Source: Blastococcus sp. TF02A-30
Lineage (GTDB): Bacteria; Actinomycetota; Actinomycetes; Mycobacteriales; Geodermatophilaceae
Assembly: GCF_003319185.1 (NCBI RefSeq)
Contig: NZ_QOHJ01000001.1
Location: forward strand, 1 to 64,000
Direction: 5' to 3'
DNA length: 64,000 nt
Below are positions 4,228 to 52,760 of this stretch, one piece after another (within the stretch, counting starts at the first letter, position 1; every line of letters begins with the position of its first letter). The translations under genes and the position numbers were made by a program. The notes under the pieces were generated by a model that did not search any database, was not told the DNA's origin, and saw only the letters and a list, made by a program, of their open reading frames with translations.

Positions 4228-5376
4228 TCAGGCCCGGAACCAGATCCAGAGGACCAGCCCCGCGGCCAGCGCCCAGAAGGCGGAGCCGATCCCGGCGATG
4301 CTGATCCCGCTCACGCCCACCAGGAAGGTGGCGACGACGGGCGTGCGGTCCCCCGGCCGTTCGAGCGCGCTGCTCAGGGACGACGCGAGCACCGGCCAGA
4401 GCGCCAGGCCCGCCGCGGCCGTGACGAACCCGTCCGGCGCGGTGGCGACCAGCGCCGCCACCGCGACGGAGACCAGCGCGATCGCGGCGTAGGCGACGCC
4501 GGCCGTGCGCGCGGCCCGGTACCGGCGGGCCGGGTCCGGATCGGCCTCCGGCCCGGCGGCGAGCGCCGCGCTGATGGCGGCGAGGTTGATCCCGTGGCCG
4601 CCGAACGGCGCGCCCAGCGCGGTGCCGGCGCCGGTGACCGCCATCGCCGGGCGCCACGGCGCCCGGTAGCCGAACGAGGCGAGCACCGCCATGCCCGGCA
4701 CGTTCTGCGAGGCCATGGTCACGAGGAACAGCGGCAGGCCGATCCCGAGCAGGGTGCCCGGGTCCAGCGCGGGCGTCGTCCACTCGAGGGCCGGGACCAG
4801 GTCGCCGGGGTCGAGGCCGCCGTCCCGCGCCGCGAGCCAGCCGACGATGCCGAGCGTGACGGCGAAGGCGGCGGGGATCGCCCACCGCGGGGCGAGCTTG
4901 GCCAGCACCGCCCAGACGAGCAGGACGGGGACCAGCAGCTCCGGCATCTCCAGGGCCGCGCGCACCGGCTGCAGGCACAGCGGGACGAGGACGCCGGCGA
5001 GCATCGCCTGCGCGATCGGGGCCGGGATCGCCGCGATGGCGTCGCCGAGGCGGGGCCAGGCGGCGGTGAGCAGCACGAGGCAGCCGACGAGGAGGAACGC
5101 GCCGACGGCGGCGGGCCAGGAGTGCGTCGACGCGCCGGCCAGCAGCGCCGCGCCGGGCGTGGACCAGGCGACGGTGATCGGCATCCGCGTCCGCTGCGCC
5201 AGGAACACCGTGGCCAGGCCCATGGTCAGCGACAGGACGAGCAGCCCGGAGGCCGCCTGGGCCGGCGAGGCCCCCACCGCCCGGAGCCCGGTGAGCACCA
5301 CGGCGAAGGAGCTCAGGAAGCCGACCAGGGCGGTGACGAGGCCCGCGACGGTCGTCGACGAGGGAGCGGCGGGCAC
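4228..5376 (-). CDS. BenE-family benzoate/H+ symporter-like membrane transporter
   Basis: A 382-residue polytopic inner-membrane protein with about 11-12 hydrophobic segments. Length and the motifs TPGAALLAG, ASQNVPGMAVL and GAPFGGHGINLAAISAA are typical of BenE aromatic-acid symporters, which share a fold with NCS2 nucleobase transporters. No benzoate catabolic genes are in the window. The GTG start is chosen because TAGCGT lies eight bases upstream with TTGGAC as a -35 at 16-bp spacing. A TTG 36 bases further upstream would overlap that promoter. It diverges from the carbamate kinase gene, and its -35 touches the shared operator at 5411-5428. It may import a heterocycle or acid used by the neighbouring regulon; this is inference. 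Confidence 0.75.
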   Translation of the reverse strand: MPAAPSSTTVAGLVTALVGFLSSFAVVLTGLRAVGASPAQAASGLLVLSLTMGLATVFLAQRTRMPITVAWSTPGAALLAGASTHSWPAAVGAFLLVGCLVLLTAAWPRLGDAIAAIPAPIAQAMLAGVLVPLCLQPVRAALEMPELLVPVLLVWAVLAKLAPRWAIPAAFAVTLGIVGWLAARDGGLDPGDLVPALEWTTPALDPGTLLGIGLPLFLVTMASQNVPGMAVLASFGYRAPWRPAMAVTGAGTALGAPFGGHGINLAAISAALAAGPEADPDPARRYRAARTAGVAYAAIALVSVAVAALVATAPDGFVTAAAGLALWPVLASSLSSALERPGDRTPVVATFLVGVSGISIAGIGSAFWALAAGLVLWIWFRA

Positions 5377-5384
5377 GACGGGGG

Positions 5385-5412
5385 ACGCTAGCCGCCCACC
5401 TTCTCGGTCCAA
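5385..5412 (-). promoter_or_regulatory. Promoter of the BenE-like gene
   Basis: On the minus strand, TTGGAC (5412-5407), a 16-bp spacer and TAGCGT (5390-5385) precede the GTG at 5376 by eight bases. The -35 overlaps the end of the operator at 5411-5428 by two bases. Confidence 0.5.
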
Positions 5413-5428
5413 CTACTTCACCGCTAAG
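5411..5428 (-). promoter_or_regulatory. Regulon operator copy 1 (CTTAGCGGTGAAGTAGTT)
   Basis: First of five copies of the 18-bp motif YTTAGCGSTGAGGTAYYT in the window. It covers the -35 (TTCACC) of the carbamate kinase promoter and touches the -35 of the divergent BenE-like gene, a position expected for a repressor. See 17618, 17720, 19393 and 50660 for the other copies. Confidence 0.7.
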
Positions 5429-5451: not shown

Positions 5452-6402
5452 ATGACGTCTCGCCGCGTGGTGATAGCCCTGGGTGGCAATGCCATGACCG
5501 GAGCGGACGGCTCGGCCACGCCCGCCGCCCAGCAGGCGGCCCTCGCCCAGGCGAGCGGGCACATCGCCGACGTCGTCGCCGCCGGTGTGGACGTCGTCCT
5601 CACCCACGGCAACGGGCCGCAGGTGGGCAACCTGCTGGTCAAGAACGAGCTGGCCGCGCACGAGGTCCCGCCGGTCCCGCTCGACTGGAACGTCGCCCAG
5701 ACGCAGGCGACCATCGGCTTCACCGTCGCCGACGAGCTCGACGCCGCGCTGCGGGCCCGCGGCCTCGCCCGGCGCACCGCCGCGCTGATCACCCGCACGC
5801 TGGTCGACGCCGACGACCCGCTCTTCCGCGAGCCGTCCAAGCCGGTCGGCCGCTTCCTCCCCCGCGAGCAGGCGCAGCGCTTCATCGACCTCGGCCAGAT
5901 CTGGGAGGACCGCGGCGAGCGCGGGTGGCGCCGGGTCGTCGCCTCGCCCGAGCCGCGCTCCGTCGTCGACACCCCCGCCATCCGCGCACTGGCCGACGCC
6001 GGCTTCGTCGTCGTCTGCGCCGGCGGCGGCGGGATCCCGGTGGTGGACGACGGCGGTGAGGCGCGCCCGCTGCGCGGCGTCGAGGCGGTCATCGACAAGG
6101 ACCTGACCGCCGCCGTCCTGGCGCGGGAGTTCGGCGCGGACACCCTGGTGATCGCCACCGACGTCCCCAACGTCATGGTCGACTTCGGCACCCCGGACCA
6201 GCGCCCGCTGGGCCGGGTCACCGTCGCCGAGCTGCGCGCGCACGCCGCGGCCGGCCAGTTCGCCCGCGGCTCGATGGGCCCCAAGGTCGACGCCGCGCTC
6301 CGCTTCGTCGAGGCCGGCGGCGCCCGCGCCGTCGTCACCTCGCTCGAGCACATCGCCGACGCCGTCACCGGAGACGACGCCGGCACCGTCCTGACCGCCT
6401 GA
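5452..6402 (+). CDS. arcC: Carbamate kinase
   Basis: A 316-residue amino-acid-kinase-family enzyme: carbamoyl phosphate + ADP gives ATP + carbamate (NH3 + CO2). The N-terminal VVIALGGNAM loop, the LTHGNGPQVG motif, GGGGIPVV and AVIDKDLTA (nucleotide and carbamoyl phosphate sites) and the late RGSMGPKVDAA motif are all present at family-normal positions. It is followed after 24 bp by a ring-opening amidohydrolase with its own Shine-Dalgarno. No arginine deiminase or ornithine carbamoyltransferase gene is nearby, so arginine fermentation is not the likely role. With FdrA/DUF1116 under the same operator, it most likely recovers ATP from carbamoyl phosphate released in heterocycle breakdown, as AllK does in E. 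coli allantoin degradation. Confidence 0.92.
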   Translation: MTSRRVVIALGGNAMTGADGSATPAAQQAALAQASGHIADVVAAGVDVVLTHGNGPQVGNLLVKNELAAHEVPPVPLDWNVAQTQATIGFTVADELDAALRARGLARRTAALITRTLVDADDPLFREPSKPVGRFLPREQAQRFIDLGQIWEDRGERGWRRVVASPEPRSVVDTPAIRALADAGFVVVCAGGGGIPVVDDGGEARPLRGVEAVIDKDLTAAVLAREFGADTLVIATDVPNVMVDFGTPDQRPLGRVTVAELRAHAAAGQFARGSMGPKVDAALRFVEAGGARAVVTSLEHIADAVTGDDAGTVLTA

Positions 6403-6426: not shown

Positions 6427-7530
6427 GTGCCCGCACCGATCGAGGTCCGCAAGGTCCCGCTGCACAACGTCAGCGACGCCTCCGAGCTCGCCAAGCTCAT
6501 CGACGAGGGCGTCTTCGAGGCCGACCGCGTCATCGCCGTCATCGGCAAGACCGAGGGCAACGGCGGGGTGAACGACTACACCCGGATCATCGCCGACCGC
6601 GCCTTCCGCGAGGTGCTGCAGGAGAAGGGCACCCGCTCGGCCGAGGAGGTCAAGCAGGTCCCCATCGTGTGGTCCGGCGGCACCGACGGCGTCATCAGCC
6701 CGCACGCCACGATCTTCGCCACCCTCCCCGAGGAGTCGGTGGAGAAGACCGACGAGCCGCGGCTGACCGTCGGCTTCGCGATGAGCGACCAGATCCTGCC
6801 CGAGGACATCGGCCGGGTCGCGATGATCGAGAAGGTCGCCGCCGGGGTGAAGCAGGCGATGGCCGAGGCCGGCATCGAGGACCCCGCCGACGTGCACTAC
6901 GTGCAGACCAAGACCCCGCTGCTCACGATCGACACCATCCGCGACGCCAAGAGCCGCGGCAAGACGGTGTGGACCGAGCACACCCACGAGTCGATGGACC
7001 TGTCCAACGCCACCACCGCGCTGGGCATCGCCGTCGCGCTGGGCGAGATCGAGATGCCGACCGACGAGGACGTCATGCACGACCTCTCGCTGTTCTCCTC
7101 GGTGGCCTCCTGCTCCTCCGGCGTCGAGCTGGACCAGGCGCAGATCGTCGTCGTCGGCAACGCCCGCGGCCACGGCGGCAGCTACCGCATCGGTCACTCG
7201 GTCATGAAGGACGCGCTGGACCAGGACGGCATCTGGGAGGCCATCCGGTCCGCGGGTCTCGAGCTGCCCGAGCGGCCGCACCACACCGACCTCGGCGACC
7301 GGCTGGTCAACGTCTTCCTCAAGTGCGAGGCCGACCCCTCGGGCATGGTCCGCGACCGGCGCAACGCCATGCTCGACGACTCCGACGTGCACTGGCACCG
7401 CCAGATCAAGGCCACCGTCGGCGGCGTGACCGCCTCGGTGACCGGCGACCCGGCCGTGTTCGTGTCCGTGGCGGCGGTGCACCAGGGCCCCTCCGGCGGC
7501 GGCCCGGTCGCGGCCATCGTCAAGGCGTAG
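6427..7530 (+). CDS. Ring-opening amidohydrolase of the cyanuric acid hydrolase/barbiturase family
   Basis: A 367-residue protein of the AtzD/TrzD/barbiturase family, which hydrolyses six-membered cyclic imides such as cyanuric acid or barbiturate. The internal threefold repeat is visible: K41 in IGKTEGNG, K162 in VQTKTPLL and K299 in FLKCEADP. Serines at about 83 ([12 protein letters not shown]), 230-231 (ASCSSGVEL) and 347 ([12 protein letters not shown]) complete the likely Ser-Lys dyads. GNARGHGG is also characteristic. The GTG start has an AAGGAGA Shine-Dalgarno. Substrate cannot be fixed from sequence by eye. Neighbours (NCS2 permease, Mo-hydroxylase) favour barbiturate from pyrimidine oxidation, giving ureidomalonate. 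Cyanurate remains possible. Confidence 0.88.
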
Positions 7531-11626: not shown

Positions 11627-11667
11627 GGCTCCGGTGTCAGGCGACGGCGGTCTACGGGGCTGACGGG

Positions 11668-14684: not shown

Positions 14685-16097
14685 TCAGGCGGCGGCGCGG
14701 GCTTCGTGCGCGAGCGCCTTCAGAGCCTGCTCGAAGCACTGCTGCGGCGGCTGCACCAGCCCGGCGCCGACCTGGCCGGTGCCGGCGACCCGGCCGGCCA
14801 TGCCGGTGTTGATCTGCGGCAGCCAGCCGGTGCGCGCCACCTTGAGCACGTCGATGCCGGTCGGTGAGCCGCGGAAGCCCATGATCGGGATGGCCATGGC
14901 CGGGTTCTCGGCCAGGGTCAGCTGGTACATGCGCTCCGTCGTCGCCAGGGCGTCGGGCACCGTGCCGCCGACGAACCGCACGATCGCCGGCGCCGCGGCC
15001 ATGGCGAAGCCGCCGATGCCGTAGGTCTCCATGATCGCGGAGTCGCCGATGTCGGGGTTGGCGTCGTCGGGCCCGTAGTCCCCGAGGAAGAGCCCGACCG
15101 GGGTGTTGGCCGGGCCGGTGAACCAGCGGTCGCCGGTGCCGGCGGTCTGGATGCCGAACTCGGTGCCGTTGCGCGACATCACGGTCAGCATCGTCGAGCC
15201 CGGGATGCCGCGGCAGGCGTCGAGGGCGAGCTTCGCCGTCGGCATGCCGAGGTTGAGGAAGAAGTGCTCGTTGCCGCCGATGAACTTCAGCACGGCGGCG
15301 ATGTCGGACGCGGCCCAGCCCTCGACGGCCACGATCGCGGGCGAGAGCTCGCGCAGCGACATGAGCGAGCCGGCGCGGTTGCGGTTGTGCGCCTCGTCGC
15401 CCATCTGCAGCATCTGCGCGAGCACGGACTTCACGTCGAGCGGGTCGCTCATCGACCGCACGGCCTGTTGCAGCACCGGGCCGAGGACGTCGCGCATCCA
15501 CCGCAGCCGGGTCTGCACCTCCTCGTTGAAGGCGCCCATGCGCAGCACCTTGCCGAGGCCCTCGTTGAGGTTGCAGTACGCCTGGCCGCCGTGGACCGGG
15601 TCCTCCAGGCACCACATCCACATGGACGGCGAGGTGACGCCGGCCATCGGGCCCACCGTGCGGTGGTGGTGGCACGGGTCGAGGGTGATCTCGCCGGCGG
15701 CGAGCATCCGCTCGGCCTCCTCGACCGTGTCCGCCCAGCCCTCGAAGAGGCAGGCGCCGATCAGGCCGCCGCGCAGCGGACCGGAGGCGTCGGCCCACTC
15801 GATCGGCGGGCCGGCGTGCAGGATCGTGCGGTCGGCCAGGCCGATGACGTCGCGCGCGGGGCGGACGTCCACCAGCACCGAGCCGGCGGCCATCAGCCGC
15901 TCGACGGCGGTGCGGTTCGCGGCGGCCCGGCGGGGGTCGAGGGCCACCGCGGCGAGGTCCTCCGCCGAGCCGAAGCCCGGCGGCCGCCAGTCGACGTCGT
16001 GCACCTCGGCGCCCTGGGCGCGCAGGGCGTCGGAGAAGACGGAGACGCCGGCCGCGACGATCGCCGGCGGGCCGGAGAGGATGCCACCCAGGGTCAC
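14685..16097 (-). CDS. ylbE: DUF1116 protein (YlbE/AllG family), probable transcarbamylase component
   Basis: A 470-residue DUF1116 protein. E. coli YlbE (AllG) works with FdrA (AllF) and YlbF (AllH) as oxamic transcarbamylase, turning oxalurate and phosphate into oxamate and carbamoyl phosphate. Conserved-looking features include VDWRPPGFG, DPCHHHRTVGPMAGVTSPSMW, CNLNEGLGKVLRMGAF, the GNEHFFLNLGM segment and MSRNGTEFGIQ. The GTG start overlaps the fdrA stop by 4 bp, so the two are co-translated. No YlbF/AllH (DUF2877) gene follows; a hairpin repeat ends the operon. The true substrate is unknown; ureidomalonate or biuret are candidates given the regulon. Confidence 0.85.
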   Translation of the reverse strand: MTLGGILSGPPAIVAAGVSVFSDALRAQGAEVHDVDWRPPGFGSAEDLAAVALDPRRAAANRTAVERLMAAGSVLVDVRPARDVIGLADRTILHAGPPIEWADASGPLRGGLIGACLFEGWADTVEEAERMLAAGEITLDPCHHHRTVGPMAGVTSPSMWMWCLEDPVHGGQAYCNLNEGLGKVLRMGAFNEEVQTRLRWMRDVLGPVLQQAVRSMSDPLDVKSVLAQMLQMGDEAHNRNRAGSLMSLRELSPAIVAVEGWAASDIAAVLKFIGGNEHFFLNLGMPTAKLALDACRGIPGSTMLTVMSRNGTEFGIQTAGTGDRWFTGPANTPVGLFLGDYGPDDANPDIGDSAIMETYGIGGFAMAAAPAIVRFVGGTVPDALATTERMYQLTLAENPAMAIPIMGFRGSPTGIDVLKVARTGWLPQINTGMAGRVAGTGQVGAGLVQPPQQCFEQALKALAHEARAAA

Positions 16098-17590
16098 TTG
16101 CCAGCTCCCAGCAGGTCGAGGGCGTACCGCGTGGCCGCCGAGTTGGACGAGAAGACGGCGGCACCGGCCGCGGCGAGCGCGTCGGCCTGGCGGGACCAGC
16201 CCTGCGGGTCGCCCTCGGTGCCGATGAGCGCGATGACGACCGGCAGCGGGTGCTCGGCGGCGTCGCGGGCGGAGCTGAGCGCGGGCACCAGCGCGGCCGC
16301 CGGGTCGGCGTCTGCGCCGTAGCCGAGGACGACGTCGAGCAGCAGCACCGCGGGCTCGTCGGAGGACGCCACCGCGGCGATCGCCTCGAGCCGGAGCGTC
16401 GGGTCGATCATCGGGTGCGCGCGGCCCACGGTGAGCGCGTCGTCGCCGAAGTCGATGACCACGTGCCCGCGGGCGGTGAAGTCGGCGCCCAGGTCGAGCT
16501 CCGGGCGCAGCGGGATGTTCGAGCGGATGTCGCCGAGCGCCGGGCCGGCGATGAGCATCGCCTCGTCGGCGAGCGTGCCGCCGGCGTACAGGCCCTTGAG
16601 CACCGCACCCGGCGCCGGCGCCTCGGCCGGCCCGGGGCGCGAGGGCCACACCGGGACGTCGAGGCCCATGTCGCGCAGCAGGCCCTCGACCCCGGCGGTC
16701 AGGTCGGGGCTGTCGGCGGAGAGGACGGCGGAGCGCACGGGCACGGCGAGCTTCGCGGCGGCCTCCTCGACGGCGGCCGCGACCGACGGCGCGGGAGGCT
16801 TGGAGACCAGCAGCACCCGCTCGGTGGCGGGGTCGGCGTCCAGGGCGGCGAGCGCGTCGAGCGTGGCCAGCCCGCCCACCTCCTCCTTGAGGTCGCGCCC
16901 ACCGACGCCGAGCACGTGCGAGACGCCGACGCCGGCCATGTCGAGCAGGCAGGAGACCTGCTGGGCACCGGTGCCGGAGGCGGCGACGAGGCCGACCGGC
17001 CCGGGGCGGACGACGTTGGCGAAGCCGAGGGCGACGCCGGAGACGATCGCCGTCCCGCAGTCGGGGCCCATGACCAGCACGCCGGCGTCGTGGGCTGCCT
17101 GCTTGAGGGCCACCTCGGCCTCGACGGGGACGCCGTCGGAGAACACCAGGACGCTGCGGCCGGCGGCGATCGCGTCGGCGGCCTCGGCGACGGCGTAGCT
17201 GCCGGGGACGCTCACGATCGCGAGGGCCGGCCCGTCGGAGGGCAGCTCGTCGAGGCCGGCGCCGACGGTGCGCTGCGGGATCGCCGTCGCGGTGCCACCG
17301 GTGGACCGCTCACGGGCGGCCAGCGCGGTGTCGACGGCGGCGACGGCCCCGGTCAGCGCATCCTCGTCGTCGGCGCGGATCGCGATGAGCAGCTGCTCGG
17401 GGGAGGTGTCGCCGTCGGGCGCCAGGCCCATGTTCGCGGCGAGCTCGAGGTTCAGCGGCGTGGCCATGGCGACCACGACCGCCTGGACGCCGTCACGGGC
17501 GCCGATCTCGCGGCTGACCTGCATCAATCGCACGGAATCGGCGTAGACGCCGCTGCGGAGGGAGACGTGCCGGGCTGGACTGTCGCTCAC
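16094..17590 (-). CDS. fdrA: FdrA-family protein (AllF-like, succinyl-CoA-synthetase alpha-related)
   Basis: A 498-residue FdrA homologue, a little shorter than the roughly 550-residue E. coli protein. The N-terminal RSGVYADSVRLMQVS and VVVAMATPLNLELA segments are diagnostic. A CoA-binding-like domain carries GPDCGTAIV and GLVAASGTGAQQ, and a second ligase-like domain follows with VIDFGDD and LLLDVVLGYGADADP. The family was named as an acyl-CoA synthetase, but E. coli FdrA is a subunit of oxamic transcarbamylase. The GTG start has a TAGCGT -10 element eight bases upstream (leaderless), next to operator copy 2. It is co-transcribed with the DUF1116 gene. Confidence 0.88.
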   Translation of the reverse strand: MSDSPARHVSLRSGVYADSVRLMQVSREIGARDGVQAVVVAMATPLNLELAANMGLAPDGDTSPEQLLIAIRADDEDALTGAVAAVDTALAARERSTGGTATAIPQRTVGAGLDELPSDGPALAIVSVPGSYAVAEAADAIAAGRSVLVFSDGVPVEAEVALKQAAHDAGVLVMGPDCGTAIVSGVALGFANVVRPGPVGLVAASGTGAQQVSCLLDMAGVGVSHVLGVGGRDLKEEVGGLATLDALAALDADPATERVLLVSKPPAPSVAAAVEEAAAKLAVPVRSAVLSADSPDLTAGVEGLLRDMGLDVPVWPSRPGPAEAPAPGAVLKGLYAGGTLADEAMLIAGPALGDIRSNIPLRPELDLGADFTARGHVVIDFGDDALTVGRAHPMIDPTLRLEAIAAVASSDEPAVLLLDVVLGYGADADPAAALVPALSSARDAAEHPLPVVIALIGTEGDPQGWSRQADALAAAGAAVFSSNSAATRYALDLLGAGK

Positions 17591-17617: not shown

Positions 17618-17635
17618 CTTAGCGGTGAGGTATCT
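17618..17635 (+). promoter_or_regulatory. Regulon operator copy 2 (CTTAGCGGTGAGGTATCT)
   Basis: Matches the 18-bp consensus at every defined position except a C at the second-last pyrimidine choice, which is allowed. It overlaps the -35 region of fdrA. It is 84 bp from copy 3 in the same orientation, both between the divergent fdrA and permease genes. Confidence 0.7.
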
Positions 17636-17719
17636 CGAAACGGACTCCGGCGACCCGGAAAGCGGGGCGCACGGGACAGGCGGGAGCGGTGGAGCGCCGG
17701 CATCTCCCCGCAATAACGA

Positions 17720-17737
17720 TTTAGCACTGAGGTACTT
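17720..17737 (+). promoter_or_regulatory. Regulon operator copy 3 (TTTAGCACTGAGGTACTT)
   Basis: It lies 102 bp before the NCS2 permease start, with one deviation from consensus (A for G at position 7). The promoter it controls is not clear. Ten bases downstream is a small inverted repeat, CTGTGT/ACACAG, at 17747-17764. Confidence 0.65.
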
Positions 17738-17839
17738 CCGCGACACCTGTGTGCGGTGACACAGTGGCGCCCCCGGTGGTGGCAACGCCCGTTGACCGAC
17801 ACCGCTCACTGGTCTGCAGTGCACGTCGAGGAGGCACTC

Positions 17840-19291
17840 ATGGCGTTCGGTTGGAAGCTCTACGGGGACGGCAAGACGCCGCCCCTCGGCGAGGCGGTGG
17901 CACCGGACGAGCGGCTCTCGTGGCCCCGCACGGCCGGCATCGGCGCGCAGCACGTCGTCGCCATGTTCGGGGCGACCTTCGTCTTCCCGATCATCATGGG
18001 GCTGGACGCGAACCTCGCGATCATGATGAGCGGTATCGCGACGATCCTGTTCCTGATCATCGTGAAGGGTCAGGTACCGAGCTACCTCGGCACCAGCGCC
18101 GCCTTCGTCGGCGGTGTCGCGGCGATCCGCCTCAACGGCGGTGACTCGTCCGACGTCGTCGGCGCGATCCTGGTCGCCGGCGTCGTGCTGGCGCTGGTGG
18201 GTCTGCTGATCCACTTCGCCGGCCTGGGGCTGATCAACAAGGTGCTGCCGCCCGCCGTCACCGGCGCGGTCGTCATGCTCATCGGCTTCAACCTGGCCCC
18301 GGTGGCCGCCAAGACGTACTGGCCGCAGGACCAGTGGGTCGCGCTGGCCGTCATGGCCTTCGTCATCGTCTGCTCGCTGGCGCTGCGCGGCTTCCTGGCC
18401 CGCATCTCCATCCTGCTGGGCCTGGTCTTCGGCTACCTGCTCTCGGTGCTGCTCGACGCCACGGCCGGCCAGATCACCTCGCCCGACGGCACCGGCGCCG
18501 AGGTCACCCGCGACCGGATCAACTTCGACGCGGTCTCCGACGCCGACTGGTTCGGGCTGCCCGACTTCACCGCGCCGAGCTTCTCGCTCAAGTTCAGCCT
18601 GCTCGTCATCCCGGCCGTCATCGCCCTGGTCGCCGAGAACGTCGGCCACGTCAAGGCCGTGGCCGAGATGACCAAGCGCAACCTCGACCCGGTCATGGGC
18701 CGCGCGGTCTTCGCCGACGGCGTCGCCACCGTGGTCGCCACCTCCGTGGGTGGCTCGCCGACCACGACCTACGCCGAGAACATCGGCGTCATGGCCGCCA
18801 CCCGCGTCTACTCGACGGCGGCCTACTACGTCGCCGCGATCGTGGCGATCCTGCTGGGCCTGGTGCCCAAGTTCGGCGCCCTGGTCAACATCGTCCCGGG
18901 CGGCGTGCTCGGCGGCATCACCGTCGTCCTCTACGGGATGATCGGCCTGCTGGGCGCCAAGATCTGGAAGGAGAACCGGGTCGACTTCGCCAACCCGATC
19001 AACCTCGTGCCGCTCGCGGCCGGGATCATCATCGGCATCGGCGACGTCACGCTGCGGTTCTCCGACGACTTCTCGCTCAACGGCATCGCGCTCGGCTCGA
19101 TCGTCGCGGTCGTGGCCTGGCACGTGGCCAAGGCCCTGGCGCCCGCCGAGATGAAGGCAGCGCTCGAGCGCGAAGGCACCCACCCGGCGGCCGGGACCAC
19201 CTTCGGTCACGTCCACGGTGAAGAGGTCTCCGCGGACCCGTCGTCGGTCGACCAGGTCGGCCGACCGGGGGTTCCGGGCACCAACCGGTAG
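17840..19291 (+). CDS. NCS2-family nucleobase permease (uracil/xanthine type)
   Basis: A 483-residue inner-membrane symporter with about 14 hydrophobic segments. NCS2 hallmarks: GAQHVVAMFGATFVFP near residue 35, the transmembrane-8 acidic residue in LVAENVGHVKAV, and GGSPTTTYAENIGVMAATRVYS, a pattern closest to uracil/pyrimidine permeases of the UraA/RutG group. The ATG is preferred over an in-frame GTG 84 bp upstream because GAGGAGG lies directly before it and the upstream codons cover an inverted repeat. It diverges from fdrA with an operator copy on each side. It probably imports the heterocycle that the regulon degrades. Position in the membrane and proton coupling follow from the family. 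Confidence 0.9.
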   Translation: MAFGWKLYGDGKTPPLGEAVAPDERLSWPRTAGIGAQHVVAMFGATFVFPIIMGLDANLAIMMSGIATILFLIIVKGQVPSYLGTSAAFVGGVAAIRLNGGDSSDVVGAILVAGVVLALVGLLIHFAGLGLINKVLPPAVTGAVVMLIGFNLAPVAAKTYWPQDQWVALAVMAFVIVCSLALRGFLARISILLGLVFGYLLSVLLDATAGQITSPDGTGAEVTRDRINFDAVSDADWFGLPDFTAPSFSLKFSLLVIPAVIALVAENVGHVKAVAEMTKRNLDPVMGRAVFADGVATVVATSVGGSPTTTYAENIGVMAATRVYSTAAYYVAAIVAILLGLVPKFGALVNIVPGGVLGGITVVLYGMIGLLGAKIWKENRVDFANPINLVPLAAGIIIGIGDVTLRFSDDFSLNGIALGSIVAVVAWHVAKALAPAEMKAALEREGTHPAAGTTFGHVHGEEVSADPSSVDQVGRPGVPGTNR

Positions 19292-19392: not shown

Positions 19393-19410
19393 TTTAGCGC
19401 TGAGGTACTT
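19393..19410 (+). promoter_or_regulatory. Regulon operator copy 4 (TTTAGCGCTGAGGTACTT)
   Basis: A perfect match to the consensus, 68 bp upstream of the first gene of the Mo-hydroxylase operon and just after the permease terminator. The surrounding CAACAAAAGTTTT is notably AT-rich for this genome. A TACTTT within the motif could be a -10 element. Confidence 0.7.
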
Positions 19411-19478
19411 TCGCCAGCCCGCAGCGCGGTGAAAGAGTGACGGCTCTCGCACCACTCGCACGGAGGTGACCGCAGCCG

Positions 19479-20354
19479 GTGAAGCCTGCTCCGTTCCGGT
19501 ACGCCGATCCCGGCTCGCTGGACGAGGCCCTCGCGGTCCTCGTCGCCGAGGGGGACGGCGCCAAGGTGCTCGCCGGCGGCCAGTCGCTGCTGCCGCTGCT
19601 CTCGATGCGGCTCGCCGCGCCCAGCACCCTGGTCGACATCAACCGCGTGCCCGGCCTCTCGGCCGTGGACGTCTCCGCCGACGGCGTCCGGGTGGGCGCC
19701 CTCGTGCGGCACAACACGCTGCTGCACGACGAGGCCGCCGCGGGCGTGCAGCCCCTGCTGGGACGGGCGACGGCGAACGTGGCCCACCCGGCCATCCGCA
19801 ACCGCGGCACCACCGTCGGCTCGATCGCGCACGCCGACCCCTCGGGCGAGATGACGTCGGTCCTCGCCCTGACCGGCGGCTCGGTCACCGTGGCCACCCC
19901 GTCCGGCGTGGACACCGTCGACTGGCAGGACTTCTTCGTCGGCCCGCTCGAGACCTCGGTGCACGGCCCCGCCGTCGTCACCTCCGCCTTCTTCCCGGCG
20001 CTGCCGGCCCGCTCCGGCACGGCGTTCGAGGAGGTCGCCCGGCGCAAGGGCGACTACGCCGTCTGCGGCGCCGGCGTCGTCGTCACGCTGGACGCCGACC
20101 GCAAGGTCGAGCGGGCGCTGGCCTCCTACGTCTCGGTGGGTCTGACCCCCGAGGTGCACGACCTGACCGACGCCGTCGTCGGCGCCCCGGTGGAGAAGGC
20201 CGACTGGGCCGCCGCGGGCGAGCTGGCGCGCACGCTGGTCGACCCCGACACCGACATCCACGCCAGCGCCGACTACCGGCGGCTGCTGGTGGGGGTGCTC
20301 ACCGAGCGCACGCTGGCCGCGGCCGCGGCCGAAGCTGCTGGGAGGGTCTCGTGA
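19479..20354 (+). CDS. Molybdenum hydroxylase, FAD-binding medium subunit (CoxM/CutM-like)
   Basis: A 291-residue FAD subunit of a three-subunit xanthine-dehydrogenase-family enzyme. It has the two family FAD motifs, AGGQSLLPLL (about residues 32-41) and the NVAHPAIRNRGTTVGSIAHADPSGE segment, followed by the CO-dehydrogenase FAD C-terminal domain. It passes electrons from the iron-sulfur subunit to an acceptor. The GTG start has GGAGGTG eleven bases upstream. Its stop overlaps the next gene's GTG (GTGA). It is the first gene of a tight four-gene operon behind operator copy 4. Confidence 0.92.
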   Translation: MKPAPFRYADPGSLDEALAVLVAEGDGAKVLAGGQSLLPLLSMRLAAPSTLVDINRVPGLSAVDVSADGVRVGALVRHNTLLHDEAAAGVQPLLGRATANVAHPAIRNRGTTVGSIAHADPSGEMTSVLALTGGSVTVATPSGVDTVDWQDFFVGPLETSVHGPAVVTSAFFPALPARSGTAFEEVARRKGDYAVCGAGVVVTLDADRKVERALASYVSVGLTPEVHDLTDAVVGAPVEKADWAAAGELARTLVDPDTDIHASADYRRLLVGVLTERTLAAAAAEAAGRVS

Positions 20355-20872
20355 CCGCCTCCGTCGACACCGAGCGCACCATCACCGTCACGGTGAACGG
20401 GGTGCGCCGCGAAGCCACCGTGCCGGTGCGCCGGCTCCTGTCGGACGCGCTGCGCCACGACCTCGGGCTGACCGGCACGCACGTCGGCTGCGAGCACGGC
20501 GTCTGCGGCGCCTGCACCGTGATCGTCGACGGCGCCCCGATGCGCTCGTGCCTCATGCTCGCCGTCCAGGTCGACGGCGCCGAGGTGCGCACCGTCGAGG
20601 GGCTGGCGCACGAGGACCACCAGGGCGGCCAGGTGCTGCACCCGGTGCAGGAGGCCTTCCGCGAGTGCCACGCCCTGCAGTGCGGGTTCTGCACGCCGGG
20701 CTTCCTCATGACGATCGCCGCCGGGCTGGAGTCCCGCGATCCGGACGCCGAGCTCACCGAGGACGAGGTCGACGAGATGGTCGGCGGCAACCTCTGCCGG
20801 TGCACCGGCTACGCGAACATCAAGAAGGCCGTGCGCCACGCGGCCGACGCGATGAAGGACGGCGCCCGATGA
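20351..20872 (+). CDS. Molybdenum hydroxylase, [2Fe-2S] small subunit (CoxS-like)
   Basis: A 173-residue subunit with two [2Fe-2S] clusters. The N-terminal plant-ferredoxin-type cluster uses C47, C52, C55 and C67 (GCEHGVCGACTV). The C-terminal helical domain uses C111, C114, C149 and C151 (QCGFCTPGF and LCRCTGY). All eight cysteines are present. The GTG start has GGAGG before it and overlaps the FAD-subunit stop. The stop overlaps the large-subunit ATG by 4 bp. Confidence 0.95.
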   Translation: MTASVDTERTITVTVNGVRREATVPVRRLLSDALRHDLGLTGTHVGCEHGVCGACTVIVDGAPMRSCLMLAVQVDGAEVRTVEGLAHEDHQGGQVLHPVQEAFRECHALQCGFCTPGFLMTIAAGLESRDPDAELTEDEVDEMVGGNLCRCTGYANIKKAVRHAADAMKDGAR

Positions 20873-23292
20873 CGACGAAGCTCTTCGGGGAGCCGGTCCG
20901 CCGGCGCGAGGACCAGCGGCTGATCACCGGCAAGGGCCGCTACCTGGACGACATCGGTGCGCAGGCGCTGGCCGCGGCCTTCGTGCGCTCGCCGCACGCG
21001 CACGCCCGGATCGTCGACATCGACGTGGACGAGGCGCTCGAGGTCGAGGGCCTCATCGCCATCTACACCTACGAGGACCTGCACGGCCCGATGGCCGAGC
21101 CGCTCCCGGTGCTCATCCCCCACCCGCAGCTGCACGCGCCGCGCACCGGCTACCCGCTGGCCAACGGCGAGGTGAACCACGTCGGCGAGCCGGTGGTCAT
21201 GGTCGTGGCCACCGACCGGTACGTCGCCGAGGACGCCGCCGAGCGGATCGTCGTCACGTACGAGGAGCTGCCGGTCGTCGTCGGCGTGGACCAGGCCCGC
21301 GAGGCCCGGATCGCCGTCCACGAGGAGATCCCGGACAACGTCGCCGCCCGGCACCACCAGGAGACCGGCGACGTCGAGCCGGCGCTGGCCGCCGCGCCGC
21401 GCACCCTGTCCTTCACCCAGTACATCGAGCGCAGCGCCTGCACGCCGATGGAGGGCAAGGGCGTGCACGCCAAGTGGGACGCCGACGACTCGTCGCTGCG
21501 GGTCTACACGAGCACCCAGGCGTCGACGTCGGTGCGCGCGGCGATCGCGGCCAAGCTCGAGCTGTCGCTGGACAAGGTCGAGGTCATCGCGCCCGACGTC
21601 GGCGGCGGCTTCGGCGTGAAGATCGTGCACCCGTGGCCCGAGGAGCTGCTGGTGCCGATGGCGGCGATCGCGCTCGGCCAGGAGGTGAAGTGGACCGAGG
21701 ACCGGCGTGAGCACTTCATCGGCTCGGCCCACGAGCGCCAGCAGCGGCAGGAGATCACCGTCGGCTACGACGACGACGGCCGGATCACCGCCCTCGACGT
21801 GCACGTCTGGCACGACAACGGCGCCTACACGCCCTACGGGATCATCGTCCCGATCGTGACCGCGACCCAGCTGGTCGGGCCCTACGTCATCCCCGTGTAC
21901 CGGGTGATCGTCGAGTCGGTCTACACGAACACCGTCATCGTGACGCCGTACCGCGGCGCCGGGCGGCCGCAGGGCTGCTACGCGATGGAACGGACGATGG
22001 ACCGCATCGCCGACGACCTGGGCCTGGACCGGGCCCTGGTCCGCGAGCGGAACCTCATCCAGCCCGAGCAGTTCCCCTACGACCACCACCTGACGTTCCA
22101 GGACGGCCGGCCGGTCATCTACGACTCGGGCGACTACCCGGGCCTGATGCGGAAGCTGAAGGACCTGGTCGGCTGGTCGGAGGCCGAGAAGCTCCGGGCC
22201 GACGCCGAGGCGCGCGGGAAGCTGCTCGGCGTCGGGATGGCCATGTACGTGGAGGGCACCGGCCCCGGCCCCTACGAGGGCGGGCACGTGCAGGTGCTCG
22301 GCAGCGGCAAGGTGCTGGTCTCGACCGGGCTCACGTCGCAGGGCCAGGGGCACGAGACGGCGTTCGCGCAGATCGTGGCCTCCGAGCTCGGCGTCCCGAT
22401 CGAGGACGTCGAGGTGACCACGGGCGACACCCGACGCTTCGGCTACGCCGTCGGCACGTTCGCCTCCCGCGCCGCGGTCATGAGCGGCAACGCGATCGCG
22501 CTGGCCGCCCGCGGGGTGCGGGAGAAGGCCCTGCGGATCGCCGCCGACGTGCTGGAGGCCTCGCCCGACGACCTCGAGATCGACGAGGGCCTCATCCAGG
22601 TGAAGGGCGTGCCCGGGACCTCGATCCCGCTGCGCACCGTCGCCGTCCTGTCCAACCCGCTGCGCTACGCGTTCGACGAGGCCGCCAAGCAGGCCACGCA
22701 GTTCGCCGGCCCGGGCGACGACTCGAAGCCGCCGGTCGCGCCGGGCGACGCCCCGGGCCTGGAGCACCGCGACTACTACTCGCCGATCCGCTCGACGTTC
22801 GCGTCCGGCGCGCACGCGGCGATCGTCGAGATCGACCCGGCGACGTGGGAGATCGACGTCGTCAAGTACGCCGTGGTGCACGACTGCGGCAACGTGGTGA
22901 ACCCGATGATCGTCGAGGGCCAGGTGCACGGCGGCGTCGCCCAGGGCGTGGGCGGCGCGCTGTACGAGCGGATGGCCTACGACGGCGACGGGCAGCTGCA
23001 GAACGCCTCGTTCATGGACTTCCTGATGCCCTACGCGTCGGAGGTGCCCGACGTGGTGATCGACCACCAGGAGACGCCGTCGCCGCTGAACCCGCTGGGG
23101 ATCAAGGGCGCCGGCGAGGCCGGCGTCATCCCGGGGACGGCGGCGCTGGCCTCGGCGATCGAGGACGCGGTGGGACGGCGGATCGCGGCCATGCCGATCT
23201 CGCCCACCGAGCTGTACGACCTGGTGCGTTCCCCCGATTCGGAGATGACCGCGACGGCGCAGCGCCGCGCGGGGACTGGAGTGATGGCGTGA
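20869..23292 (+). CDS. Molybdenum hydroxylase, molybdopterin-binding large subunit (CoxL/XdhB-like)
   Basis: An 807-residue catalytic subunit. The Mo cofactor site shows GGGFG at residues 245-249 and the catalytic glutamate in KGAGEAG near residue 750. The active-site loop is TPYRGAGRP (359-367), not the AYxCSFR loop with the copper-binding cysteine of true form I CO dehydrogenases. It is therefore a hydroxylase of an N-heterocycle or other organic substrate rather than a CO oxidiser. Under the shared operator, likely substrates are uracil/thymine (giving barbiturate) or a purine. Overlapping start and stop codons couple it to both neighbours. Confidence 0.9.
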   Translation: MTTKLFGEPVRRREDQRLITGKGRYLDDIGAQALAAAFVRSPHAHARIVDIDVDEALEVEGLIAIYTYEDLHGPMAEPLPVLIPHPQLHAPRTGYPLANGEVNHVGEPVVMVVATDRYVAEDAAERIVVTYEELPVVVGVDQAREARIAVHEEIPDNVAARHHQETGDVEPALAAAPRTLSFTQYIERSACTPMEGKGVHAKWDADDSSLRVYTSTQASTSVRAAIAAKLELSLDKVEVIAPDVGGGFGVKIVHPWPEELLVPMAAIALGQEVKWTEDRREHFIGSAHERQQRQEITVGYDDDGRITALDVHVWHDNGAYTPYGIIVPIVTATQLVGPYVIPVYRVIVESVYTNTVIVTPYRGAGRPQGCYAMERTMDRIADDLGLDRALVRERNLIQPEQFPYDHHLTFQDGRPVIYDSGDYPGLMRKLKDLVGWSEAEKLRADAEARGKLLGVGMAMYVEGTGPGPYEGGHVQVLGSGKVLVSTGLTSQGQGHETAFAQIVASELGVPIEDVEVTTGDTRRFGYAVGTFASRAAVMSGNAIALAARGVREKALRIAADVLEASPDDLEIDEGLIQVKGVPGTSIPLRTVAVLSNPLRYAFDEAAKQATQFAGPGDDSKPPVAPGDAPGLEHRDYYSPIRSTFASGAHAAIVEIDPATWEIDVVKYAVVHDCGNVVNPMIVEGQVHGGVAQGVGGALYERMAYDGDGQLQNASFMDFLMPYASEVPDVVIDHQETPSPLNPLGIKGAGEAGVIPGTAALASAIEDAVGRRIAAMPISPTELYDLVRSPDSEMTATAQRRAGTGVMA

Positions 23293-23972
23293 ACCTCGAC
23301 GGCTCTGCGGTTCTCTCGGGCAGCCCCGAGCAGGTGTGGTCGGTCATCACCGACCCGGCCGTGCTGGCGCGGACGATCCCGGGCTGCGAGACGCTCGAGC
23401 AGGTCGGCGACGACGAGTACAAGATGAACGTCTCGGTCGGCGTCGGGGCGATCCGCGGCACGTACGCGGGCGAGGTGCGGCTGGCCGACAAGGAGCACCC
23501 GAAGTCCTACGTCATGCACGCCTCCGGCGCCGGTGCCCCGGGGAACGCGCGGGCCCAGGTGACGATCAACCTCGCCGACGCCGGCAACGGGACGACGAAC
23601 CTGACCTACTCGGCCGACGCCGTCATCGGCGGCCCGGTGGCCGGGGTGGGCCAGCGGATGATCACCGGCGTCGCGAAGCGCATGGCCGGCCAGTTCTTCA
23701 AGGCGATCGACGCCGAGCTGACCGGCACGGCTCCGGCTCCGGCCGCCGCTCCGACGGCTGCGGCCATCAGCACGACGGCGGCTGCCCCCGCCGCTGCGGG
23801 CGAGGCCGCGCCGGCTGCCGCCGCACCGGCGGTCTTCGCCGGCAGGGCCGCGGGCGTTCCGGCGGGACCGTCCGGCGACGTGCAGACCCTGGCGCTCGGC
23901 GCTGTCGGCGGCGCGGTGCTGACGCTGATCGGCGTGCTCATCGGCTACCGCATGGGCCGCCGCAAGGGCTGA
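23289..23972 (+). CDS. CoxG-like SRPBCC protein with C-terminal membrane anchor
   Basis: A 227-residue CoxG-family protein. Residues 1-150 form a START-like (SRPBCC) domain beginning with the GSAVLSGSPEQVWSVITDP pattern. An Ala/Pro-rich linker (about 150-200) joins a single transmembrane helix near 205-222 ending in a basic MGRRKG tail. In Oligotropha, CoxG is needed for membrane recruitment of CO dehydrogenase, so this protein may dock the Mo-hydroxylase at the membrane to feed electrons to quinones. The GTG start overlaps the large-subunit stop by 4 bp. A strong terminator follows. Confidence 0.87.
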   Translation: MNLDGSAVLSGSPEQVWSVITDPAVLARTIPGCETLEQVGDDEYKMNVSVGVGAIRGTYAGEVRLADKEHPKSYVMHASGAGAPGNARAQVTINLADAGNGTTNLTYSADAVIGGPVAGVGQRMITGVAKRMAGQFFKAIDAELTGTAPAPAAAPTAAAISTTAAAPAAAGEAAPAAAAPAVFAGRAAGVPAGPSGDVQTLALGAVGGAVLTLIGVLIGYRMGRRKG

Positions 23973-50650: not shown

Positions 50651-50679
50651 TTCCCGACGAGATATCTCAGCGCTAAGGT
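50651..50679 (+). promoter_or_regulatory. Promoter of hyuA
   Basis: TTCCCG (50651-50656), a 17-bp spacer and TAAGGT (50674-50679) end eight bases before the ATG at 50688, fitting a leaderless transcript. Operator copy 5 lies between and over these elements. Confidence 0.5.
50660..50677 (-). promoter_or_regulatory. Regulon operator copy 5 (CTTAGCGCTGAGATATCT)
   Basis: Matches the consensus with one substitution (A for G at position 13). It overlaps the -10 element of hyuA, so binding should block transcription. It is about 31 kb from copy 4 and ties hyuAB to the heterocycle cluster. Confidence 0.7.
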
Positions 50680-50687
50680 TTCTGTCC

Positions 50688-52760
50688 ATGAGTGAACGCC
50701 GGGTCCGCATCGGCATCGACACCGGGGGGACGTTCACCGACGTCGTCGCGGTGGACGAGGAGTCCGGCCGGACGACCACGACGAAGACCCCTTCCACGCC
50801 CGCCGACCCGGCCGAGGGCTTCCTCGCCGGCGTCCGCAAGGTCCTCGACCTGATGGGCCTCGACGGCACCGCCGTCACGGCGGTCAGCCACGGGACGACG
50901 GTGGCGACCAACCAGCTGCTCGAGGGCAAGCTCGACCGGATCGGGTTCATCACGACCGAGGGCTACGAGTCGGTCCTGGAGATCGCCCGCCAATCGGTGC
51001 CCGACGGCTACGGCAACAGCTACTTCTGGGTCAAGCCGCCGCGGATCGTCCCGGCCGACCTGGTGAGGACGGTGCGCGGCCGGCTGGACCACACCGGCGC
51101 CGAGGTGCGCCCGTTCGACGAGGGCGACGCCCGCGCCGCGGCCCGCTTCTTCAAGGACGCCGGCATCACCACGATCGGCGTCTGCTTCCTGCACGCCTAC
51201 GCGAACGACGCGCACGAGCAGCGGATGCTCGAGGTGATCCGCGAGGAGCACCCCGACGCCGTCGTCTCGATCAGCTCCGGCGTCCTGCGCGAGTACCGCG
51301 AGTACGAGCGCTCGGTGACCACCCTGGTCGACGCCGCGGTCAAGCCCAAGGTGAGCGCCTACGTCACCAACATCCGCACCCGGCTGGACGAGATCGCCCC
51401 GGGCGTGCCGTTCTACGTGATGAAGAGCAACGGCGGCGTGCTCTCGGCCGGCGAGGTCGTGCACCAGCCGATCACCACGATGCTCTCCGGCCCGGCCGCC
51501 GGCGCCCTGGGCGCCGCGCTGATCGCCGGCACCGCCGGCTTCGACCGCGTGCTCACCTGCGACGGCGGCGGCACCTCCACCGACGTCACCGTGGTCATCG
51601 ACGGCGACCCGGCGCTCACCACCGAGGGCTCGGTCGGCGACTACCCGAGCAAGATCCCGATGATCGACGTCGTCACCGTCGGCGCGGGCGGCGGCTCGAT
51701 CGCCTGGCTGTCGCCCGAGGGGACGCTCAAGGTCGGCCCGAAGTCGGCCGGCGCCGACCCCGGCCCCATCTGCTACTCGAACGGCGGCACCCAGCCGACC
51801 GTCACCGACGCGCACGTCGTCCTCGGCCGGATCCCCCCGCACCTGCTCGGCGGCGAGATCCCGCTGTCGGTGGACGCGGCCCGCGAGGGCCTGGAGAAGC
51901 TGGGCGCCTCCCTGGACCTGGACCTGGCCCGCACCGCGACCGGGATCCTGGAGATCTCCGCCTGGAACCAGGCCAACGCGCTGCGCCAGGTGACCGTGGC
52001 CCGCGGCCTCGACGTCCGCGACTTCACGCTCACCACGTTCGGCGGCTCGGGCTCGCTGCTGGCCTGCCGGCTCATGGACATCCTCGGCCTGCCGAGGACG
52101 CTGGTGCCGCCGAACCCGGGCAACGTCAGCGCGTTCGGCCTGCTCACCGTCGACGTCCGCAACGACTACGTGCAGACCGTCGTCAGCAAGCACGCCGACC
52201 TCGACCTGGACCGGGTGCGCTCGGTGTTCGGCGCCCTGGAGGACCAGGCGCGGGTGGCGCTGGACGGCGAGGGCTTCGACCGCGCCGACCAGCGCATGCA
52301 GCGGACCGCGGACCTGCGCTACGTCGGCCAGGCCTTCGAGGTGCGGGTGCCGGTGGCCGACGGCGAGCTCGACGCCGCCGCGGCCGAGCAGGTCGCGCAG
52401 GAGTTCCACGCCGCGCACCGCCAGCTCTACGGCTACGACTTCGCCGACGACCCGCGCCAGGCCGTCGAGTGGGTGAACCTGCGGGTCAGCGGCATCGGCC
52501 CGATCCGCCGTCCCGACATCGTGCGGCTCGAGCCGCGCGACGGCGGGATCGAGCGCGCCGTCACCGGCAGCCGCCGGGTGTTCTTCGACGACTGGGTCGA
52601 CACCCCCACCTACAACCGGCCCGACCTCGCCCCCGGCGACGTGGTCAGCGGCCCGGCCATCATCGAGGAGTTCGGCTCCACCGTCCCGGTGCACCCCGGC
52701 TTCGCCGCCACCGTGGACGACCACGGCAACCTGCTGCTCACGAAGGAGTCGGGCCAGTGA
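50688..52760 (+). CDS. hyuA: Hydantoinase/oxoprolinase-family protein, subunit A (HyuA)
   Basis: A 690-residue HyuA homologue with an actin/ASKHA-like ATPase fold: RIGIDTGGTFTDVVAVD at the N-terminus, SHGTTVATNQLLEGK, SGPAAGALGAAL, CDGGGTSTDV, and GGGSIAWLSPEGTLKVGPKSAGADPGP. Members are ATP-dependent cyclic amidases (N-methylhydantoinase, 5-oxoprolinase) or carboxylases. With HyuB it forms a two-subunit enzyme. Under the same operator as the barbiturase-like gene, it may open a five-membered ring or activate an amide or ketone intermediate. The exact substrate cannot be read from the sequence. Confidence 0.9.
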   Translation: MSERRVRIGIDTGGTFTDVVAVDEESGRTTTTKTPSTPADPAEGFLAGVRKVLDLMGLDGTAVTAVSHGTTVATNQLLEGKLDRIGFITTEGYESVLEIARQSVPDGYGNSYFWVKPPRIVPADLVRTVRGRLDHTGAEVRPFDEGDARAAARFFKDAGITTIGVCFLHAYANDAHEQRMLEVIREEHPDAVVSISSGVLREYREYERSVTTLVDAAVKPKVSAYVTNIRTRLDEIAPGVPFYVMKSNGGVLSAGEVVHQPITTMLSGPAAGALGAALIAGTAGFDRVLTCDGGGTSTDVTVVIDGDPALTTEGSVGDYPSKIPMIDVVTVGAGGGSIAWLSPEGTLKVGPKSAGADPGPICYSNGGTQPTVTDAHVVLGRIPPHLLGGEIPLSVDAAREGLEKLGASLDLDLARTATGILEISAWNQANALRQVTVARGLDVRDFTLTTFGGSGSLLACRLMDILGLPRTLVPPNPGNVSAFGLLTVDVRNDYVQTVVSKHADLDLDRVRSVFGALEDQARVALDGEGFDRADQRMQRTADLRYVGQAFEVRVPVADGELDAAAAEQVAQEFHAAHRQLYGYDFADDPRQAVEWVNLRVSGIGPIRRPDIVRLEPRDGGIERAVTGSRRVFFDDWVDTPTYNRPDLAPGDVVSGPAIIEEFGSTVPVHPGFAATVDDHGNLLLTKESGQ

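Follow-up and report, generated by a model that had tools for sequence, protein, structure and literature searches.

The 64,000-nt stretch of Blastococcus sp. TF02A-30 DNA analysed here (NZ_QOHJ01000001.1; hereafter the window) contains a four-gene operon for a molybdenum (Mo) hydroxylase and a CoxG-like protein, which is built like an operon for aerobic carbon monoxide (CO) dehydrogenase but which very probably encodes uracil/thymine dehydrogenase. A first-pass annotation of the same DNA had placed a CO-dehydrogenase-like operon at 19479-23972. Those coordinates are correct, and Pfam searches confirmed the flavin adenine dinucleotide (FAD), 2x[2Fe-2S] and molybdopterin subunits together with CoxG. 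The four genes, designated M, S, L and CoxG, are all on the + strand and are joined by successive 4-base overlaps:

19479..20354, + strand: FAD (medium, M) subunit of a Mo hydroxylase (Pfam PF00941 and PF03450, FAD_binding_5/CO_deh_flav_C)
20351..20872, + strand: 2x[2Fe-2S] (small, S) subunit (Pfam PF00111 and PF01799, Fer2/Fer2_2)
20869..23292, + strand: molybdopterin (large, L) subunit, candidate catalytic subunit of uracil/thymine dehydrogenase (PF01315, PF02738, PF20256)
23289..23972, + strand: CoxG-like protein, probable quinone carrier or membrane anchor (PF06240, COXG; hydropathy)

Family and active-site loop of the large subunit

All three Pfam domains that characterise the xanthine oxidase family (Ald_Xan_dh_C, MoCoBD_1 and MoCoBD_2) are found in the large subunit, which also retains the Glu of the KGxGE motif (GIKGAGEAG, residues 744-752), so that, with its FAD, 2x2Fe-2S and molybdenum cofactor subunits, the enzyme has the complete make-up of a xanthine-oxidase-type Mo hydroxylase. 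By sequence it is a full member of NCBIfam NF040766 ('CODH_aero_grp5', aerobic CO dehydrogenase), which it matches with 1466.7 bits against a cut-off of 950; the forecast that homology would lead to its mis-annotation as CO dehydrogenase is therefore correct for NCBIfam. It falls below both the form I model TIGR02416 (466.6 bits vs a cut-off of 991.15) and the xanthine dehydrogenase model NF043082 (387.8 bits vs 780), and none of the eight candidates scored from its own genome matched TIGR02416 at E 1e-250. The CoxG-like protein has a single hydrophobic stretch, at its C-terminus, LALGAVGGAVLTLIGVLIG (hydropathy).

In phmmer and MAFFT alignments the active-site loop reads VTPYRGAGRPQG, as opposed to VAYRCSFR in PDB 1n5w and VAYACSFR in 8uem, bearing out the claim that the form I AYxCSFR loop is lacking. 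The loop, TPYRGAGRPQG, spans residues 359-369, and E. coli XdhA has AMRGYGAPQV at the aligned position. PYRGAGRP is found in 79 of a set of 80 related loci (48 close and 32 divergent), the exception, L049, having PSRGAGRP. As read from its sequence, the loop appears to be of the form II type, a point absent from the first-pass annotation. PMC13240472 and PMC12021596 give AYRGAGR as the form II CoxL motif and term the CO activity of form II unresolved or non-preferred. Measured against that motif, the large subunit reads PYRGAGR; a paralogue in the same genome has the exact AYRGAGR and groups with form I. This paralogue (L013, C11:363249-363932) is a second CoxL-like gene, in the order S-L-M, and sits on a long branch within the form I CO dehydrogenase clade.

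Because its branches are long, the 40-row large-subunit tree was used solely to separate the two main clades. In it, 1n5w, 8uem and 12 form I loci make up the form I clade (100/100), and the large-subunit group falls into a clade of its own (100/99); the phylogenetic comparison with CoxL suggested at first pass thus puts the large subunit outside form I. The closest PDB chain by sequence is quinoline 2-oxidoreductase, an enzyme that hydroxylates an N-heterocycle beside the ring nitrogen. This chain (1t3q) scores 481 bits vs 398 for the best CO dehydrogenase, although it acts on another substrate and lies 2.1 substitutions per site from the large subunit on a long branch. In sum, the window enzyme shares its subunit make-up, M-S-L order and CoxG with form I Mo-Cu CO dehydrogenase (CoxMSL, CoxG), but differs from it in loop, clade and TIGR02416 score. 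Two diverged large-subunit paralogues in other genomes, L146 (G656:C61:96552) and L147 (G491:C85:1407), score 1256 and 1148 bits with NF040766, and one of these second copies lies near an AllG-like gene.

Barbiturase, conserved neighbours and a shared operator motif

The best evidence on the role of the operon, overlooked at first pass, is a barbiturase gene in the same window. The relevant neighbours are:

4228..5412, - strand: BenE-family permease, divergent from the carbamate kinase-barbiturase pair (PF03594; true start probably near 5376)
5452..6402, + strand: carbamate kinase-like protein, directly before barbiturase (open reading frame; 40% identical to E. coli YbcF by blastp)
6427..7530, + strand: barbiturase (PF09663, 499.5 bits; 310/365 identical to PDB 5hwe)
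14685..16118, - strand: AllG (PF06545, 308.5 bits; 48% identical to E. coli YlbE)
16094..17527, - strand: FdrA-like protein (PF00549, PF02629; NF004760, 382.6 bits; 39% identical to E. coli FdrA by blastp)
17840..19291, + strand: NCS2 nucleobase permease (PF00860; top NCBIfam models of RutG and UraA type, below equivalog cut-offs), the permease that the first-pass annotation had correctly set next to the hydroxylase operon
50688..52760, + strand: HydA, hydantoinase/oxoprolinase-type subunit (PF05378, PF01968, PF19278)
52469..54652, + strand: HydB subunit, open frame (PF02538 from residue 114; real start probably near 52757)

Judged by similarity and residue signature, the gene at 6427-7530 is a true barbiturase of the characterised type. 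Its product is 85% identical to 5hwe, a solved structure entered as 'Barbiturase' that we take to be a Rhodococcus erythropolis protein, and scores 670 bits with it vs 337 for the next chain, cyanuric acid hydrolases matching much less well. Each of the five specificity positions carries a Bar-type residue (Asn194/His324/Lys328/Val348/Ala349, from an alignment to AtzD, 4bvq). The corresponding Group VI (Bar-type) residues are listed, in AtzD numbering, as Asn195/His321/Lys325/Val345/Ser-Ala346 in section 12 of PMC3758960, a paper that also places enzymes of Blastococcus, Geodermatophilus and Modestobacter in the group of the characterised barbiturase. Cyanuric acid hydrolase, the other function considered for this PF09663 gene, was set aside on the signature and the gap in score.

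Hydroxylase and barbiturase genes are distributed together. In a class sample of 394 genomes, with the hydroxylase scored as NF040766 over its cut-off and barbiturase as PF09663, the former was found in 76 and the latter in 82; 75 genomes had both, 1 had only the hydroxylase, 7 had only PF09663 and 311 had neither. PF09663 genes thus occur in 75/76 genomes with the hydroxylase vs 7/318 without it (Fisher p = 2.9e-71, uncorrected for kinship, with all seven PF09663-alone genomes kept). Five of those seven have only 35-40% identical homologues (L129, L132-L135); in G161 the hydroxylase is split between two contigs (881 and 532 bits), and in G062 (95% complete, ~380 contigs) a 10 kb contig carries a true barbiturase and carbamate kinase. 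Of the 18 genomes listed for one genus of this sample (g47), 11 have both genes and 7 have neither.

A second sample comprised 348 genomes of the order. After barbiturase matches of 37-40% identity (G073, G572, G629, G649) and a sub-cut-off hydroxylase (G741) were dropped, and a partial hydroxylase (G579, 796 bits) was kept, 87 genomes had both genes, 4 the hydroxylase only, 2 barbiturase only and 255 neither; with the dropped matches kept, the counts are 87 for both, 5 and 6 for either alone, and 250 for neither. The hydroxylase-only genomes are G308 and G684 (100% complete) and G447 and G559 (82 and 88%), and those with barbiturase only are G549 (88% complete) and G565 (86%). The genus of Blastococcus sp. 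TF02A-30 (g1) splits into 7 genomes with both genes and 8 with neither. Of the 80 related loci, 42 (all 32 divergent and 10 close) had their genomes searched for barbiturase, and 41 of these genomes yielded a PF09663 gene, the sole miss (L073) being a metagenome-assembled genome.

The two genes are also physically linked. In the 49 class-sample genomes that carry both on one contig, they are on the same strand in every case, and barbiturase is downstream of the hydroxylase in 47, at 7.8 to 78.6 kb. Where the genes lie closer together, they form a single same-strand run, as in L148, L149, L150, L182 and L184. The order is HydA-HydB-carbamate kinase-barbiturase-NCS2-M-S-L-CoxG in L148, PucR-NCS2-M-S-L-CoxG-HydA-HydB-barbiturase in L149, and barbiturase-NCS2-M-S-L-CoxG-HydA-HydB in L150 (G620), which is from the same family as the window. 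Genomes G816 and G941 have, on one strand, barbiturase-amidase-class III aminotransferase-NCS2-M-S-L-CoxG-HydA-HydB, with barbiturases that match 5hwe at 363/365 and 364/365 residues. The class III aminotransferase inside this run (L182:12426-13646 (-), and in L184) has no obvious place in the proposed pathway. In a further sample, the family of G684 (371 genomes, 22 with barbiturase), the hydroxylase was present in 6 of the 7 barbiturase neighbourhoods examined.

The rest of the neighbourhood is conserved as well. CoxG is found in 48/48 close and 31/32 divergent loci, and FdrA with AllG in 42/43 close and 21/23 divergent loci with at least 9.9 kb upstream. Among divergent loci with at least 9.9 kb downstream, HydA is present in 21/21, HydB in 20/21 and a carbon-nitrogen hydrolase in 14/21, the last being found in 0/40 close loci. 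XdhC/CoxI-family genes, which are common to Mo hydroxylases, stand beside some relatives.

The regulon motif said at first pass to control the operon is real. With up to two mismatches, TTAGCNNTGAGGTANNTNNG occurs at five sites in the window (shuffle mean 0.01) and at seven in the 4.13 Mb genome, where the reversed-pattern control gave 0. The sites in the window, and the seventh in the genome, are:

5408..5427, - strand: operator motif, 2 mismatches, between BenE and carbamate kinase-barbiturase
17619..17638, + strand: operator motif, 1 mismatch, between fdrA and the permease
17721..17740, + strand: operator motif upstream of the permease
19394..19413, + strand: operator motif upstream of the FAD subunit
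50657..50676, - strand: operator motif, 2 mismatches, 11 bp upstream of the HydA start codon
C11:238124-238143, - strand: seventh operator-like site, 2 mismatches

The sixth site is on another contig (C23:445215), where a CoA-transferase family III-like gene starts 51 bp downstream of it and is followed by a carboxyltransferase-like gene. This pair (Pfam names) has counterparts in L186 and L183, at 67% and 62% identity, and barbiturase has such a pair next to it, or no more than a few kb away, in L136, L138, L143, L152, L182/L183 and L186-L189. Since the motif at the sixth site marks a pair that clusters with barbiturase elsewhere, motif and synteny converge independently on one gene set. A membrane protein, permease-like by eye (L012:7851-9203 (+)), is encoded immediately before the sixth site and the CoA-transferase and could transport malonate or a base. 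In its exact form the motif core is found in 39/48 close and 0/32 divergent loci, and the motif thus belongs to the relatives of the window, not to the system at large. A PucR-type regulator, assigned by eye from sequence and the annotation of L151, is adjacent in 20/23 divergent loci with at least 9.9 kb upstream.

Elsewhere in the window, an open frame at 11102-12145 (-), which adjoins a short-chain dehydrogenase, has a C-terminal half that by eye resembles RNA 2'-phosphotransferase (Tpt1/KptA).

Proposed function and its alternatives

An oxidative pathway of uracil breakdown was described in the 1950s. Soong et al. (2001, 2002) reportedly dealt with this pathway in R. erythropolis, including uracil/thymine dehydrogenase (EC 1.17.99.4), barbiturase and ureidomalonase. 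It leads from uracil to barbiturate and from there to malonate and urea, as stated in PMC3758960 and PMC7662398. A literature search, which mostly did not extend to subscription papers, found no gene in print for uracil/thymine dehydrogenase or ureidomalonase.

We propose with considerable confidence that M-S-L, with CoxG, is uracil/thymine dehydrogenase set among the genes of its pathway, and not CO dehydrogenase; from gene content, family membership, shared motif, synteny and co-occurrence we infer every catalytic step. This assignment is the most likely one because, across the sampled genomes, the hydroxylase nearly always accompanies barbiturase and other genes of oxidative uracil breakdown. 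The first-pass suggestion of an N-heterocycle hydroxylase, possibly uracil/thymine dehydrogenase, is accordingly strengthened, as a predicted activity, by a barbiturase under the same motif in the window, by the 75/76 co-occurrence and by two of the same-strand runs. The name of NF040766 asserts CO oxidation, but the genomic evidence assembled here favours uracil. The true barbiturase and the hydroxylase that share one same-strand run in G816 and G941 are a likeness to the R. erythropolis pathway, in which the hydroxylase gene is the one proposed here.

In the proposed pathway, the NCS2 permease would import the base and the Mo hydroxylase would oxidise uracil, and probably thymine, at C6 to give barbiturate (5-methylbarbiturate). 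Electrons would leave by way of the iron-sulfur clusters and FAD and then, we infer, enter the quinone pool through CoxG; the hydroxylase is the sole oxidoreductase in the conserved gene set seen. CoxG, for which the first-pass annotation suggested a membrane-tethering role, is described as a menaquinone-binding electron carrier for CO dehydrogenase in PMC13240472, and as the anchor of a Sulfolobus dehydrogenase in PMC11962113. A heterocycle dehydrogenase with a CoxG homologue as proposed anchor, compared by its description, resembles the window enzyme in the role of CoxG and differs in substrate and pathway. Transfer to quinone would be in keeping with a dye-linked, not a nicotinamide adenine dinucleotide-linked, enzyme. 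Barbiturase (6427-7530) would then open the ring to ureidomalonate, and the CoA-transferase and carboxyltransferase under the shared motif would probably activate the malonate finally formed.

Several observations weigh against this assignment. The Fisher test takes no account of kinship. G308 and G684, both rated 100% complete, have the hydroxylase-HydAB cluster and no barbiturase match; barbiturase was not found in the 18 genomes searched of the genus around G684, and a plasmid of Rhodococcus sp. ZPP has the cluster and no barbiturase of at least 60% identity. Conversely, G902 has barbiturase and an amidase with no hydroxylase in the 39 kb examined. The existence of clusters without barbiturase means that in some bacteria the product may not be routed through that enzyme. 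HydAB, which has no settled role, is the more constant neighbour in divergent loci and is present where barbiturase is absent or not seen (G308, G684, ZPP), which leaves room for another product. Finally, the FdrA-AllG step considered below is less secure because the window has no AllH match. Possible roles for HydAB include the opening of 5-methylbarbiturate derived from thymine and, in some lineages, an adenosine triphosphate (ATP)-driven opening of barbiturate; should HydAB work on some other product, the hydroxylase of those lineages may have another substrate.

Pressed further, these points become the strongest competing explanation, namely that the hydroxylase acts on a related pyrimidine or other N-heterocycle, with HydAB opening the product and barbiturase belonging to a parallel branch. 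The near invariance of HydAB beside the hydroxylase in divergent loci and the clusters of G308, G684 and the ZPP plasmid fit this explanation, but the five same-strand barbiturase-hydroxylase runs (L148, L149, L150, L182, L184) and the 75/76 co-occurrence do not, and we consider it unlikely.

Well below this in probability is a purine hydroxylase, acting on xanthine or hypoxanthine and feeding an allantoin/oxalurate route in which FdrA-AllG is a true oxamate carbamoyltransferase. FdrA-AllG and carbamate kinase do resemble the E. coli allantoin set, and the regulator adjacent in 20/23 divergent loci is of the PucR family. To our knowledge, however, barbiturase has no place in purine breakdown, and the hydroxylase is linked to it; the NF043082 score is 388 bits against a cut-off of 780, and uricase is encoded on another contig, ~6 kb from another Mo hydroxylase, in a 19.5 kb stretch with no FdrA or AllG match. 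The xanthine and hypoxanthine alternatives raised at first pass are weakened to that extent, and xanthine dehydrogenase was set aside on the strength of the uricase and second hydroxylase elsewhere in the genome. That locus (L014, C24:171702-179648), where the hydroxylase near uricase is xanthine dehydrogenase-like, is likely to be a purine locus.

The least credible explanation, an authentic aerobic CO dehydrogenase (form II-like, 'group 5') with the pyrimidine genes as mere neighbours, draws on the NF040766 name (1466.7 bits), the M-S-L order with CoxG and the CO oxidation reported for two Kyrpidia strains with form 2 CO dehydrogenase only (PMC12021596), and was set aside because the CSFR loop is absent, the clade is wrong, the TIGR02416 score is 467 bits against a cut-off of 991 and the hydroxylase co-occurs with barbiturase.

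The ureidomalonate step and wider implications

If the hydroxylase is uracil/thymine dehydrogenase, its pathway needs a route from ureidomalonate to malonate. In this lineage ureidomalonate is probably cleaved by FdrA-AllG, which are related to oxamate carbamoyltransferase, in a reaction with phosphate that gives malonamate and carbamoyl phosphate; carbamate kinase would make ATP from the carbamoyl phosphate, and the carbon-nitrogen hydrolase of divergent loci could convert malonamate to malonate. We give an even chance to the idea that FdrA-AllG(-AllH) is such a ureidomalonate carbamoyltransferase, whose phosphorolysis, with carbamate kinase, would yield ATP by substrate-level phosphorylation in addition to the electrons for respiration. 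No report of a phosphorolytic ureidomalonate branch of uracil breakdown was found in the literature searched.

The window proteins are 39% (FdrA), 48% (AllG) and 40% (carbamate kinase) identical to those of the E. coli oxamate carbamoyltransferase set (fdrA, ylbE/AllG, ylbF/AllH, ybcF), but the window has no AllH match and its genes are tied to barbiturase rather than to allantoin genes. AllH is found in 0/43 close and 12/23 divergent loci with at least 9.9 kb upstream. Although the AllG domain is clear (PF06545, 308.5 bits), FdrA falls below the NF004760 cut-off (382.6 bits vs 433), and with AllH not seen in the window the genes were not filed as oxamate carbamoyltransferase.

Across 17 stretches that show barbiturase, carbamate kinase stands beside it in 9 and an amidase at least 77% identical to that of G816 in 5; of the rest, 1 has a 40% identical amidase and 2 have neither, and in none are kinase and amidase both beside it. 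FdrA, AllG and carbamate kinase were not seen within the 20 to 40 kb examined around the five amidase-type cases. It looks as though the ureidomalonate step has two solutions, an amidase (likely ureidomalonase, giving urea) or phosphorolysis with recovery of ATP. In the window, which, unlike the R. erythropolis pathway, has FdrA-AllG and carbamate kinase and no amidase noted alongside barbiturase, the former genes probably replace ureidomalonase.

If these assignments are correct, the oxidative uracil pathway would gain a gene for its first enzyme, and a testable energy-conserving variant at the ureidomalonate step. CoxG would gain a use outside CO oxidation. The NCBIfam family now named for CO dehydrogenase, which is over its cut-off in 76 of the 394 class genomes, would need renaming, and counts of CO-oxidising soil bacteria that are based on family names, and not on the active-site loop, would drop.

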